From a virus: a DNA stretch of 21,338 bases. The stretch's first letter is position 1. Each line of letters begins with the position of its first letter. The notes under the pieces are model-generated. The model was not told where the DNA came from and made no database searches. It saw nothing but the letters and a program-made list of their open reading frames with translations. The position numbers and the translations under genes are program-made. The stretch spans positions 1 through 21,338 of IMG/VR virus record IMGVR_UViG_3300006928_000121. One strand, given 5' to 3'. Of this stretch, positions 14,726 through 21,338 are shown one piece after another.

Positions 14726-15085
14726 TTAGAAGCTATACTTGGCACCGATTTTTGTGCCATATGCATTATCAGCATCTTCATCAGTAATGAATGATACTTC
14801 TCCATACACATCTAGTTTCTCAGATGCAGCTACGGAAGCTCCGAGCTTGCCTGAGAATTCAGTTGATCCGTCCGCGCCGTCACCGTTGACAAGGGCTGGG
14901 CCACCTTGAATATAATATCCAAGATCACCTACCTCGCCTTCGTAACCTACGTGTAGATCAGTAGTACGGGAAGTATAATCATTGCCTGTATAGGATGCGT
15001 TAGACTCGACGTTAGTATAAACGCCAGCCATTGCAGGAGCAGAAGCGAAAGTTGTTGCCGCTAGAGCAATTGCAAATGTTTTCAT
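14726..15085 (-). CDS. Secreted outer-membrane beta-barrel (porin-like) protein
   Basis: The 119-residue product has a clear signal peptide (residues 1-20: Lys2, a hydrophobic core, and an A-P-A-M-A cleavage site before G21). The mature ~99 residues alternate hydrophobic and polar residues in strand-length blocks (for example DLHVGYEGEVGDLGYYIQGG, FSGKLGASVAAS, LDVYGEVSFIT) and end in K-I-G-A-K-Y-S-F. A terminal Phe after alternating aromatics is the standard signal for beta-barrel assembly in the outer membrane. The size suits a small barrel of perhaps 8 strands, much shorter than a full porin. I recall similar small secreted barrels in marine cyanophages. It probably enters the host envelope during infection, but a virion role cannot be excluded. 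It begins 6 bp after the 17-aa peptide stop. Confidence 0.82.
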   Translation of the reverse strand: MKTFAIALAATTFASAPAMAGVYTNVESNASYTGNDYTSRTTDLHVGYEGEVGDLGYYIQGGPALVNGDGADGSTEFSGKLGASVAASEKLDVYGEVSFITDEDADNAYGTKIGAKYSF

Positions 15086-15503: not shown

Positions 15504-16109
15504 TTATCTTAGAGGGTAATCCCCATGTACCCATTTAACTAGAGAGTATCTAGTTCCATGAGTTACAGGCTGGACTTGGTGTATCCACCGACTATCAAAT
15601 ACAATAATAGTGCCCTGTTCTCTAGGACATACTAGTTTATTTGAGTCAGCTTCCCAACTCCAGTCTTCCATATCAGCATAGTCTAGAAGGAGATCACCTC
15701 CTTCATAGTCATTCTCATCTGATAGTTGTACGGTTACACTAAGCTTCCTAGTATTTGCAATAGATTTTCTGTCACAACTATAATCCATATGATTATTGAA
15801 GTACATACCTACATCATACTTAGAAAACTGTGCCCGTTCTTTGTCATAATCTGTTAAATCATAATCAAAGTTGTGGTTGTTTGCAATCCTAGTGTACCCA
15901 ATCAGCATAGCATTAAGCCATTCTAATTCAGTACCTTGGATGTGGACATTCCTTAAGTCATGCTTGATTGAACCACTGTCACCTTTACCGGTGAGGATTC
16001 CTCCAAGTGTATACTCTTTGTAACAATGAGCATTGATTATGTTGTTACACATATCAACTGGAAGTGCTGACTTAAAGATAGTGTAAGGACACCAGCGGTT
16101 GTTAGTCAT
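15504..16109 (-). CDS. 2-oxoglutarate/Fe(II)-dependent dioxygenase (PKHD/prolyl hydroxylase type)
   Basis: This is a 201-residue protein of the double-stranded beta-helix dioxygenase fold. The iron triad is visible as H107-x-D109 (N-N-H-M-D-Y) and H177 (R-W-I-H-Q-V), and R187 in T-R-Y-S-L-V-K-W is the 2-oxoglutarate anchor. The L-S-x-x-x-D-Y-E-G-G-D-L stretch (129-140) is typical of PKHD-type hydroxylases. The family couples oxidation of 2-oxoglutarate to hydroxylation of a protein, amino acid or nucleobase. Such genes are frequent in marine cyanophages, usually with unknown substrate. The ATG at 16109 overlaps the stop of the Lys-rich 30-aa gene as TAATG, placing it in the same operon as the scaffold and small genes. 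Confidence 0.93.
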   Translation of the reverse strand: MTNNRWCPYTIFKSALPVDMCNNIINAHCYKEYTLGGILTGKGDSGSIKHDLRNVHIQGTELEWLNAMLIGYTRIANNHNFDYDLTDYDKERAQFSKYDVGMYFNNHMDYSCDRKSIANTRKLSVTVQLSDENDYEGGDLLLDYADMEDWSWEADSNKLVCPREQGTIIVFDSRWIHQVQPVTHGTRYSLVKWVHGDYPLR

Positions 16110-17370: not shown

Positions 17371-18993
17371 TTACTGGGGTGCGGGTGCTGCTTGTTGTGC
17401 TGCTTGTTGTGCTTGTGGGCTATCCATAGCGCCTTGTAAGCTCTCTAAAATTCCAGGGTTCTTCTCTGGATCTGCAAGTGGTGACTTAGCAAACTGACCT
17501 GCTTGCTGCATCATCATTGCTTGTTGTTGTTGCTGCATCTGTTGCTGCTGCTCTTCATTCCTTTCTTCTACACTCTTAACTAGGTTAAGTACATCAATAC
17601 CTTGAGCAGCTGCCAATCTCTTGATAGCCTCATCAGGATTCAAGAATTGAGCCAGAGCTTCTGGTCCCATAGTCTGAGAAATAGTAGTGATGAATGTAAT
17701 AAGTGATTCTCTATCTTGTCCACGGCCTAACGCATTGATACCAGCTACAATTGTAACATTAACCAACCCTTTAGGTAGTGAAGGAATTTTTTTAGATACA
17801 GTCAGTGTGTGCATCTTACGGTCTAAGTATGGTATTAAGAACTCAGCTGTAAGTAAACTAAATAGTCCACCTAGCTGTTGTTCTAGTTCCATCTGCGTCA
17901 TCCGTACTTCCTCTGCAGTAGTACGTTCTGACTGTCTTGGGTTTAATACAAGGAAAGCTTCTGATATTCTACGTTCAATGACACCAGCTAAATCAAAAGC
18001 AGTACGGAAGTCAGCTTGTTTACCAACTTGTATTACTCCAATATCATCTGGCCGCCCTTGAATGATAGCACCGTTGCTAGCATTTGCTAGTGTTGCTGGC
18101 TTCGTAGTAGAGGATGGAGATACAGTAAAGACAACCTTAGCTGCCGCTGCACTTCCCTCAACTAGAGCTTGCATCAATGCTTCTAGTGATTTCAAATCGC
18201 CGAGAAATTCCTCAACTCTTGACCTTCCATAATCTTCCCCGTCCACTGTTACAAACCGTAGTGGTAACCAAGGACTTTTATCTAGTGGGGACTTACCCTC
18301 ACTGTTAGGGATCATCTTGTCATCAGCTTCCTGATGCCAGTACCACCCTTTCTTACTAGCTCTAACACAAGTGTAGACATCTACATCCTTGTCGTGTCCA
18401 CCTGTGCTGCTGTCAACGACACCACGTTCAGGTGATTCTAGAAAGTTTACTCCAGCCATTGCTGTGAGTACATGACGGTTGACCCGTTCGCGTGTAATTA
18501 TCTCAGTTACGTTACCATTTCCATCACGTTCTACTACATACCTATTGAGTGGATACATCTTCATACCATCTTTAGACATGTAAAGCAATGCATTACCTGT
18601 GACTACAAGATGTTTGATAGCTGAGAAGATTTGAACACGATCAGTAGAAGCAGCTATGCTTTCCATAACCATCCGTTCAATCTTAGCAAAGCTTAGATCC
18701 ATCTCACTCTTTTGTTCTGCAGGTATCTCTACTCCTAACTTAGAGTCATCTAGTTGGAGTTTAAAGAAACTTGTAGAGGGTGGTAGTAACCCTAGCATAA
18801 GTTTAGAGGCTAGAGTCACTACACCTTTAGCACCGACTGACTGCCAAGGAGTTTGAATCTTTGTGTAGTTAGTCGCTCCCTCCTCATCAATTAAGATGGA
18901 AGGGATTGTAAGCTTAGCACATTCAAGTGCTACGTCAAGGAAATTGGTACGGCCACTAGATAATTTACCATATCGTTGCCGTGCTAATTCCAT
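17371..18993 (-). CDS. Portal (head-tail connector) protein, gp8-like
   Basis: The 540-residue product is the same length class as T7 gp8 (536 aa). The N-terminal region matches strongly by eye: E-C-A-K-L-T-I-P-S-I, then Q-T-P-W-Q-S-V-G-A-K-G-V and L-A-S-K-L-M-L-G-L-L-P (residues ~23-72). A core with S-E-R-T-T-A-E-E-V-R (residues ~355-364) follows, and the C-terminal ~60 residues are low-complexity Gln/Met/Ala (from about residue 475). Portals form the 12-mer at the head vertex through which DNA is packaged. The ATG at 18993 overlaps the gp7.3-like stop as TAATG. Confidence 0.97.
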   Translation of the reverse strand: MELARQRYGKLSSGRTNFLDVALECAKLTIPSILIDEEGATNYTKIQTPWQSVGAKGVVTLASKLMLGLLPPSTSFFKLQLDDSKLGVEIPAEQKSEMDLSFAKIERMVMESIAASTDRVQIFSAIKHLVVTGNALLYMSKDGMKMYPLNRYVVERDGNGNVTEIITRERVNRHVLTAMAGVNFLESPERGVVDSSTGGHDKDVDVYTCVRASKKGWYWHQEADDKMIPNSEGKSPLDKSPWLPLRFVTVDGEDYGRSRVEEFLGDLKSLEALMQALVEGSAAAAKVVFTVSPSSTTKPATLANASNGAIIQGRPDDIGVIQVGKQADFRTAFDLAGVIERRISEAFLVLNPRQSERTTAEEVRMTQMELEQQLGGLFSLLTAEFLIPYLDRKMHTLTVSKKIPSLPKGLVNVTIVAGINALGRGQDRESLITFITTISQTMGPEALAQFLNPDEAIKRLAAAQGIDVLNLVKSVEERNEEQQQQMQQQQQAMMMQQAGQFAKSPLADPEKNPGILESLQGAMDSPQAQQAAQQAAPAPQ

Positions 18994-19358
18994 TATCTTC
19001 TGTTACCTGTATTGGTATTTCCTGTATTTACATTGCCGCCAGCACCTGTGCCTGTACCACCTTGTGGGGTAGTGCCTTGTCCAGTATTAACTGTACCAGG
19101 AGCTTGTGGTGATGCTTGCTTCTTCTCATCGGGAGCTGCAAGCTGCTTAGATCCACGACGCCTCTTCTGTCTCTTAGATGCTTTCTTAGCATCAGACTGT
19201 TGTACCTTTCCACCTTCGATTTCACCTTGATCGGTTACGTCAAGAGCTGCGCTACTAGGCAGATTTTGTACTACTGGAGGTGGTACTGGTGGAGGAGGAG
19301 GAGGAGGTGGGGGTGGAGGTGGTGGAGGCGGCGGCGGGGATGGTGGAGAACCACACAT
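18993..19358 (-). CDS. Polyproline, basic gp7.3-like virion protein
   Basis: This 121-residue protein has a run of 17 Pro at residues 8-24 (mixed codons), then a helical middle, a strongly basic patch K-R-Q-K-R-R-R-G-S-K-Q-L (residues ~62-73) and a Gly/Thr/Asn-rich tail. T7 carries gp7.3, a small tail-assembly protein with a Lys/Arg-Gly-Ser-Leu segment, at the same place before the portal. Marine podoviruses often have Pro-rich N termini plus this basic R-R-x-G-x-x-x-L block here. I infer a virion or tail-assembly role from position and this block. It overlaps the portal start by one base. Confidence 0.72.
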   Translation of the reverse strand: MCGSPPSPPPPPPPPPPPPPPPPPVPPPVVQNLPSSAALDVTDQGEIEGGKVQQSDAKKASKRQKRRRGSKQLAAPDEKKQASPQAPGTVNTGQGTTPQGGTGTGAGGNVNTGNTNTGNRR

Positions 19359-19362
19359 GTTT

Positions 19363-19548
19363 TTATTCCTCGTCGTTAGTTAGTTTGTTTTTAAGATATC
19401 TTACAACGCTTACTTGTCCTGCCCTGTATGCGAACTCTTTTTCTGAGAGTCTTAGGTCAGGCATGACATCTGGAAACTGCTCGTCTAGTTCTTCGATCAG
19501 TACTTCCAGATTCGTATTAAGCGTATTTGGGAAGATTGGGGTTTGCAT
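19363..19548 (-). CDS. Conserved small phage protein (61 aa), unknown function
   Basis: I choose the ATG at 19548; the codon at 19554 two positions earlier is TTG. The product has the block E-E-L-D-E-Q-F-P-D-V-M-P-D-L-R-L-S-E-K-E-F-A (residues ~19-40) followed by G-Q-V-S-V-V-R-Y-L-K-N-K. It overlaps the 3' end of nrdB by 32 bp in another frame and lies 4 bp before the gp7.3-like start. I recall similar short proteins before the portal of podoviruses, but no function. Confidence 0.78.
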   Translation of the reverse strand: MQTPIFPNTLNTNLEVLIEELDEQFPDVMPDLRLSEKEFAYRAGQVSVVRYLKNKLTNDEE

Positions 19549-20230
19549 GTTCAAAGAACGCTGGCATCCGAGCTCTCTGTGTTTCGAGAAGCCCTTCGGC
19601 TTTACCTCTATACATTAAAGAGTCACTCTGATCCAACCAAAATTTTTTGTCCAAATATTTGTTAGAGCTTGACTTCAATGGGGACATAACCCAGTTGATA
19701 GTAGCTTTCCTAAGCTTGTCCAAACTAGGAGAGATGGTCAAGCCAAGCTCTCTACACACCAGGGAATTAGCACCGACATGTACCTGTTCGTCTCTTGAGA
19801 TATCCGCGCTCACCGTGCGCATTCCAGCGTCACCGTTAAAGCGGAAGAAAGGTAGGAGTACGAAGAAGATTGCACGCTCAGCGACCATGGCTTTAAGAAT
19901 TGTGTGATCTGGATGTGATATCCAGGCTTCTCTGATTCTTTTAGCTTCTGATTCAGCCTTTGCATCAACACCGTGAGCCTCGGCGATATAACCGAGAGCG
20001 AGATCATGTCTCTCTTCGTCCCTGATATTGGACACAAGTAGCTCCCTCGCTGTTTCTGGAATTTCATGTTTGATGGCTTCTTGTATGAAGTCTCCGACTG
20101 GAACTTCCATATGTCTCATAGCGAGGGCACGGAATATTGTTTCTTCCGCACCTTCTTGGAGCTTACCTGCAGTGGTCTGTACTGGAGACCACTTACGTTT
20201 TCTATTTAATAATTTGTCATAAGGATTCAT
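19517..20230 (-). CDS. nrdB: Class I ribonucleotide reductase small (beta) subunit, divergent
   Basis: I place the start at ATG 20230, one base after the nrdA stop, giving 237 residues; the frame is open further upstream only as overlap with nrdA. The protein is a ferritin-like four-helix bundle with the di-metal ligand set E29/E30, E72-x-x-H75, E118 and E148-x-x-H151. It is much shorter than E. coli NrdB (375 aa). In that family the radical Tyr lies four residues after the first His; here this is Leu79, with the nearest Tyr at 81. Y236 near the C terminus could match the tail Tyr that relays the radical to alpha. Direct pairing with nrdA supports function as beta subunit. A Tyr-independent cofactor, such as dimanganese, is possible. 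Confidence 0.85.
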   Translation of the reverse strand: MNPYDKLLNRKRKWSPVQTTAGKLQEGAEETIFRALAMRHMEVPVGDFIQEAIKHEIPETARELLVSNIRDEERHDLALGYIAEAHGVDAKAESEAKRIREAWISHPDHTILKAMVAERAIFFVLLPFFRFNGDAGMRTVSADISRDEQVHVGANSLVCRELGLTISPSLDKLRKATINWVMSPLKSSSNKYLDKKFWLDQSDSLMYRGKAEGLLETQRARMPAFFEHANPNLPKYA

Positions 20231-20231
20231 T

Positions 20232-21338
20232 TCATTCACCGCATTCGCATTGTGGAGTAAGTATTTCCTCCAGATATGCGTCGGCTTCAGCGTCTTCGAG
20301 TGCAGCATATGCATTGGACTTGTCCTGAGTGTTACCCATAACCTGTAAGGAATAATATAAAGAGGTTTGGGGGCTGTCAAGCCACTCTTCCACGAACGCA
20401 TTGTCGTATTCTATAACATCACTCCAAGAGTTAAAGCTATAGCCGTGAAGAAGTCCCGTATTGTTTAACATTATCATGAAGCCGTCTGCTACTTTCTTGT
20501 AAGCATCCCAGCCAACTTCACTGGCAATTTCTACGTTGCCATATTCGTATGTTTGTACACCAAAAGTTCCAGAGTCGCGGTCAACACTCCGAGCTATAGG
20601 TGGTGCTATCTCTGGTGTACATGTGTAGCCATCTCGATCTTCACTCCTGTAAGAACAGGAGGCGGTAGGAGCGATAGCAAAAGCCCTATCCATTTTATTA
20701 GCTCTAGCACATTGAGCTGCTAGCTGTATACCTTTGTATAATTCAACAACAATATGCCCAGCTTTACCAGTTGTTTGTAACCCATTATTGAATTGATGAA
20801 GTGCTTCACCAAATTCTTTATAAGTTACTTGGTAGCCTCGTAAGAGATTGGCAAGTCCAAGGAATCCAAGTCCGACTTGACGGTCCGTTTCACTTGGAAG
20901 ATATTCTCCAGACCCTCCAACACCTGTTCGGCCATGAAGATCGCACAGTTCGGACATACCCGTAAAGATAGCCTCTTGTATGTTGCCGATTGTACAGGCA
21001 CCGAGATTAATATGCTGGAGGAGGCACGTTCCTCGTGATCGCAGGTATACCTCAAGACAGACATTTCCATAGATACGGTTCCCATTTTCATCGTGTTTTA
21101 TTTTGTTGAGCCAGATATCACCTGACTTGATACCGTATATTATGGCATCGCGTGTTTCCTTATCAGTACTTTTCCACTTTTCGTCGTCAAGATCGACGCA
21201 CCTTTTGACCCATGGGAGTTCATGTCTTGGCGTGGTGACAAATTCCAGAGTATCAGGGTGATCAATATCCATGTGGATAACACAAGCGCCATTCTTATAA
21301 TGTCCGCCCCGTCGAAGTGTTTCATTAAGTACTGAATA
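20232..21338 (-). CDS. nrdA: Class I ribonucleotide reductase large (alpha) subunit, 5' part missing
   Basis: The frame is open to the window edge, so this is the C-terminal 368 residues of a longer protein; the internal ATG at 21272 is not the start. Visible features (fragment numbering) are L-R-R-G-G (8-12), the catalytic N92-V-C94-L-E96, its partner Cys C105 in T-C-L-L-Q-H-I-N-L-G, the phosphate-binding P-T-A-S (224-227), the Y328-Y329 radical-relay pair, and a C-terminal C364-x-C366 redox pair. YY together with an adjacent beta gene marks class I; class II enzymes need no beta subunit. The enzyme makes deoxynucleotides for phage DNA. Its stop is followed one base later by nrdB. Any N-terminal ATP cone cannot be seen. 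Confidence 0.93.
   Translation of the reverse strand, partial: YSVLNETLRRGGHYKNGACVIHMDIDHPDTLEFVTTPRHELPWVKRCVDLDDEKWKSTDKETRDAIIYGIKSGDIWLNKIKHDENGNRIYGNVCLEVYLRSRGTCLLQHINLGACTIGNIQEAIFTGMSELCDLHGRTGVGGSGEYLPSETDRQVGLGFLGLANLLRGYQVTYKEFGEALHQFNNGLQTTGKAGHIVVELYKGIQLAAQCARANKMDRAFAIAPTASCSYRSEDRDGYTCTPEIAPPIARSVDRDSGTFGVQTYEYGNVEIASEVGWDAYKKVADGFMIMLNNTGLLHGYSFNSWSDVIEYDNAFVEEWLDSPQTSLYYSLQVMGNTQDKSNAYAALEDAEADAYLEEILTPQCECGE

Follow-up and report, generated by a model that had tools for sequence, protein, structure and literature searches.

The closest described relatives of the beta subunit considered here come from cyanophages. Harrison et al. (2019; PMC6370689) found such a subunit in P-SSP7, called it "Cyano SP" and proposed that it could form a new subclass. 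The P-SSP7 protein lacks the radical Tyr and carries a unique eight-residue pattern, and the Cyano SP clade lay apart from class Ic in all the trees of that study. Cyano SP was later made class Ø, whose ferritin-like proteins resemble class Ic in having Phe or Leu in the radical position and end in a C-terminal Tyr followed by almost nothing (Burnim et al. 2022; PMC9531940). The same work solved the structure of the S-CBP4 alpha subunit (7urg). Class Ø RNRs occur widely among cyanophages, and a placement from 2022 makes them ancestors of classes I and II. Therefore, their initiator would bear on the origin of O2-dependent radical enzymes and on the host metals that phages take. A 2026 preprint terms class Ø biochemically uncharacterised and reports that Cyano SP phages anti-correlate with predicted ocean iron, which its authors explain by the distribution of the hosts and by metal pools inside the cell (PMC12918982). 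Our literature search on the class Ø beta subunit found no biochemistry. The question of the initiator has already been posed in the literature and the absence of the radical Tyr is already known (PMC6370689, PMC9531940); the locus described here is one more ortholog and adds no new fact to that question.

The window, an IMG/VR virus record of 21,338 bases, was closest to the T7-like cyanophages P-SSP6 and 9515-10a. Gene order was taken from the list of open reading frames with relatives as a guide, and it followed the cyanopodovirus order: tail fibre, internal proteins, tail tubes, capsid, hli, scaffold, portal, nrdB and nrdA. The features of the two reductase genes are given in Table 1. The preliminary description had placed nrdB correctly and numbered E72/H75, E148/H151, L79 and Y81 exactly, but it omitted the strand; the further Glu ligands that it mentioned are E42 and E118. 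The gene lies directly downstream of nrdA and encodes a short beta subunit (about 240 residues), as expected for class Ø. A Pfam search returned no family for NrdB, and the NCBIfam search gave a single weak match far under the cut-off. The matching PHROG family, phrog_6799, is labelled "class Ia beta subunit", which is misleading because both the Tyr and the Asp of class Ia are absent.

Other genes in the window were noted as well. On one side hli and on the other the small genes preceding the scaffold gene flank a 2OG-Fe(II) oxygenase gene (15504-16109, minus strand), and no psbA-sized open reading frame was found between hli and the capsid gene. Near the capsid gene, positions 14726-15085 (minus) encode an outer-membrane-protein-like beta barrel of cyanophage (Phage_OMP, PF24653, E 5e-45), the start of which resembles a signal peptide. 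An open reading frame at 18993-19358 (minus), between the portal gene and the small gene after nrdB, carries a stretch of about 20 prolines close to its start and had no convincing family match.

Table 1. Features of nrdB and nrdA in the window, with the conservation of each residue among the aligned relatives
Feature	Position	Strand	Evidence or conservation
nrdB, 237 aa, class Ø / Cyano SP beta (ferritin-like) subunit	19517..20230	-	ATG at 20230, stop included; phrog_6799, E 2.8e-133
nrdA, C-terminal 368 aa of alpha subunit, 5' end beyond window	20232..21338	-	phrog_367, E 5e-46
Trp14, possible counterpart of E. coli Trp48 in radical transfer	20189..20191	-	221/221
Glu42, metal ligand 1 (Asp in classes Ia/Ib, Glu in Ic/Id)	20105..20107	-	221/221
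Gly46, ligand 1 + 4	20093..20095	-	Gly in the window's branch
D71-E72-E73-R74-H75, ExxH ligands and second-sphere Asp71	20006..20020	-	D71, E72, H75 221/221
Leu79, position of E. coli Tyr122 (H75+4)	19994..19996	-	L 194/221, F 27/221, never Tyr
Tyr81, closest Tyr, far helix face in the model	19988..19990	-	213/221; F, M, L or N in 8 relatives
Glu118, metal ligand 4	19877..19879	-	221/221
Ile144, at the site of the Tyr-holding Thr of class Id	19799..19801	-	I 212/221, V 9/221
D147-E148-Q149-V150-H151, second ExxH and Asp147 (E. coli D237 equivalent)	19778..19792	-	D147, E148 221/221; H151 220/221 (one X)
Tyr236, penultimate residue, equivalent of E. coli Tyr356	19523..19525	-	221/221
Tyr-Tyr dyad of NrdA (E. 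coli Y730/Y731), residues 328-329 of fragment	20352..20357	-	YY in 228/230 relatives with complete C-terminus
C-terminal Cys-Glu-Cys (CxC) of NrdA	20241..20249	-	fragment end ...PQCECGE

Relatives of NrdB were drawn from IMG/VR, GTDB contigs and phage isolates, and 221 distinct sequences, forming 59 clusters at 85% identity, were aligned. A tblastn search with the window protein matched 56 phage records at 37-82% identity. As the preliminary description had stated, the radical Tyr is missing: residue 79 was Leu or Phe in every relative, which is the class Ø state for the Tyr122 position. The first sphere (E,E,H,E,E,H) and second sphere (D,D) of the window protein are those of the class Ø / Cyano SP set in Table 4 of PMC6370689. 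The gene is under purifying selection, with a dN/dS of 0.09 against the two nearest relatives. Together with the conservation of position 79 and of the ligands, this value shows that the Tyr has been lost, as a fixed trait, throughout the sampled clade; judging by these sequences, the missing-Tyr pattern is not a chance effect.

An AlphaFold2 model of NrdB was built from 55 sequences (pLDDT 91.4, pTM 0.87); such models carry no metals. Foldseek ranked class Ic, Ie and Id beta subunits at the top, the best being 4d8f of class Ic. Structural comparison gave Z-scores of about 19-20 over about 218 residues with class I beta subunits of every subclass. Since the scores were tied, with differences below 1 among most subclasses, the fold could not be used to select a subclass. 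Sequence profiles against the PDB did not select one either, as no match was significant; the best were Chlamydia class Ic proteins at E 0.15-0.2.

Classes Ia and Ib pair Tyr at the radical site with Asp at ligand 1, class Ic pairs Phe with Glu, and class Id pairs Tyr with Glu (PMC8463856). The window protein, with Leu79 and Glu42, thus has neither residue of the Ia/Ib pair and shows the class Ic type of pairing, an inert residue with Glu at ligand 1. Class Ie proteins have lost carboxylate metal ligands, and all carboxylates are present here. Of the eight positions in the pattern, only the one before ligand 2 sets the window protein apart from class Ic, and the change is conservative: this position holds D71 in the window, Glu in class Ic and Cys in the class Id protein of Flavobacterium johnsoniae (Table 3 of PMC6370689). 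No NrdI gene was found in 10 records (seven isolate phages and three contigs), while the same search recovered NrdI in E. coli, B. subtilis and L. lactis.

We consider it likely that the window NrdB is a class Ø beta subunit with a class Ic-like, metal-stored oxidant, most probably containing Mn. The conserved ligands with an inert residue 79, the fold, the Ic-type pairing, Y236, the YY of NrdA and the NrdI result speak for this reading; the tied Z-scores, the published trees apart from class Ic, the tail lacking a docking extension and the metal-free model speak against it. The four-helix core would bind two metals through E42, E72, H75, E118, E148 and H151, and, given a redox-inert residue 79, these metals would most likely store the oxidant, as they do in class Ic. 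That the oxidant is metal-centred appears very likely. This one-electron oxidant would most probably contain Mn, with Mn/Fe favoured over Mn/Mn; we give an Mn/Fe cofactor about an even chance. The metal-only initiator put forward in the preliminary description is the most reasonable reading, whereas the parallel that it drew with class Id does not agree with L79, I144 and G46. Nor does independence from iron follow, because class Ic, whose pairing the window shares, uses Mn/Fe, its cofactor being Mn(IV)/Fe(III). Overall, the earlier observation was a correct rediscovery, and its class Id and iron-free parts are unsupported.

The iron-free proposal corresponds to a cofactor of two Mn ions, Mn(III)Mn(IV), that superoxide would activate in the manner of class Id. 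The first-sphere ligands of the window protein are common to classes Ic and Id (PMC6370689), and class Id needs no NrdI, which agrees with the search above. In addition, the Lys that class Id carries at ligand 1 + 4 (Lys71 in F. johnsoniae; PMC8463856), which attracts superoxide, occurs at position 46 in 84 of the 221 relatives, and a Pro two residues after ligand 1 (219/221) might distort helix 1 as it does in class Id. In the window itself, however, position 46 is Gly, D71 stands where class Id has Cys or Ser, and helix 29-54 is continuous in the model. Class Id also universally keeps a second-sphere Tyr (Tyr104 in F. johnsoniae), essential for activity in that species and hydrogen-bonded to a Thr (Thr191) four residues before the second ExxH (PMC8463856); neither the Tyr, at 79, nor the Thr, at 144, is present in the window. 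Class Id membership was therefore rejected on two features, the Tyr with its Thr partner and the Lys, and a Mn2 cofactor seems unlikely. Some class Ø branches resemble class Id at the single position 46. All 27 sequences with Phe79 also had Lys46, but this coupling is a lead and no test because the sequences are related by descent. The survey of positions 79 and 46 over the 221 relatives should aid in picking proteins for the bench.

Another explanation is that a stable radical on a different residue, Tyr81 or a Trp, replaces the lost Tyr. Tyr81 is present in most relatives and W14, W180, W103 and W198 are invariant or nearly so. Helix 59-86 is unbroken in the model, and at 100 degrees per residue with E72 at 0, H75 and L79 fall on the metal face (300 and 340 degrees), while Y81 falls at 180. 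Tyr81 was rejected as the radical site, since the model puts it on the far face rather than in the radical pocket and eight relatives replace it; a radical on another residue is very improbable. A di-iron centre that holds no stable radical and is oxidised anew at each turnover or each activation would be compatible with the ligand set, which has the same residues as metal-dependent subclasses, but is hardly to be expected, as we know of no class I enzyme that uses such a centre and iron-loaded beta subunits lacking the Tyr, such as E. coli Y122F, are inactive.

The YY relay and the C-terminal Cys pair that the preliminary description had noted in NrdA are both retained, as in other class Ø alpha subunits (YY dyad, CxC or CxxC terminus). 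In the E. coli holocomplex, residues 33-357 of chain 6w4x_C aligned with residues 1-237 of the NrdB model, so that Y236, the last residue but one, falls on Y356 or beside it, in a tail that is modelled with low confidence. A single residue follows the C-terminal Tyr in 164 of the 221 relatives, and at most five do. The window protein, with one residue after Y236, has the short tail of class Ø and lacks the usual alpha-docking extension. On docking, the hole may travel through W14/D147 to Y236 and from there enter NrdA, where it would pass along the YY dyad to the active-site Cys; this transfer would let the phage make its own dNTP precursors. It is possible, if doubtful, that the metal-only initiator is unlike those of both Ic and Id in make-up or activation and that the radical is passed to alpha without the usual docking tail. 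If this were true, class Ø would be a separate biochemical class.

Several nrdB records showed irregularities. In S-CBP4 (KC310804) and P-GSP1 (HQ332140), one A of a six-A run near codon 197 is missing (GACAAAAATTTTGG versus GACAAAAAATTTTGG), which truncates the annotated beta subunit in both records; the run is intact in the window and P-SSP7. P-RSP2 nrdB has a frame break near codon 131. A programmed frameshift in S-CBP4 and P-GSP1 was rejected, as a missing A in a homopolymer is more like a sequencing error or recent mutation, and all three breaks are probably homopolymer sequencing errors. Class Ø beta subunits were also seen on contigs filed as bacterial genomes (Calothrix membranacea, a Chloroflexi MAG and a Limnothrix MAG); they are 42-50% identical to the window protein and have N or M in place of Y81.

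Compared with known systems, the class Id proteins of F. johnsoniae and Leeuwenhoekiella blandensis (6cwo, 6cwp, 6sf4) share with the window Glu at ligand 1, the fold (Z 20 for 6sf4), the lack of NrdI and a metal-centred oxidant, the last being likely for the window; they differ in the Tyr, its Thr partner and the Lys, where the window has L79, I144 and G46. Chlamydia trachomatis class Ic NrdB (1syy, 4d8f, 4m1i) also has Glu at ligand 1, an acidic residue before ligand 2 and an inert residue at the Tyr site (Phe rather than Leu), with a Z-score of about 19-20. It is only 15-16% identical to the window protein over about 218 aligned residues, is about 100 residues longer with a long docking tail, and is separate in published trees. 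The beta subunit of the S-CBP4 class Ø RNR is about 80% identical, with no difference found, and the window shares the traits described for class Ø, namely a radical site occupied by Phe or Leu, a C-terminal Tyr, a short tail and an alpha subunit with CxC. P-SSP7 Cyano SP beta, which also lacks the Tyr, is 74% identical and has the same operon position. The preliminary description was right to liken the window NrdB to the P-SSP7 reductase and to treat it as a class-I-type beta subunit. The eight residues of the first and second spheres are the same (E42, E71, H74, E117, E147, H150, D70 and D146 in P-SSP7), and apart from a one-residue offset in numbering, nothing of substance separates the two.
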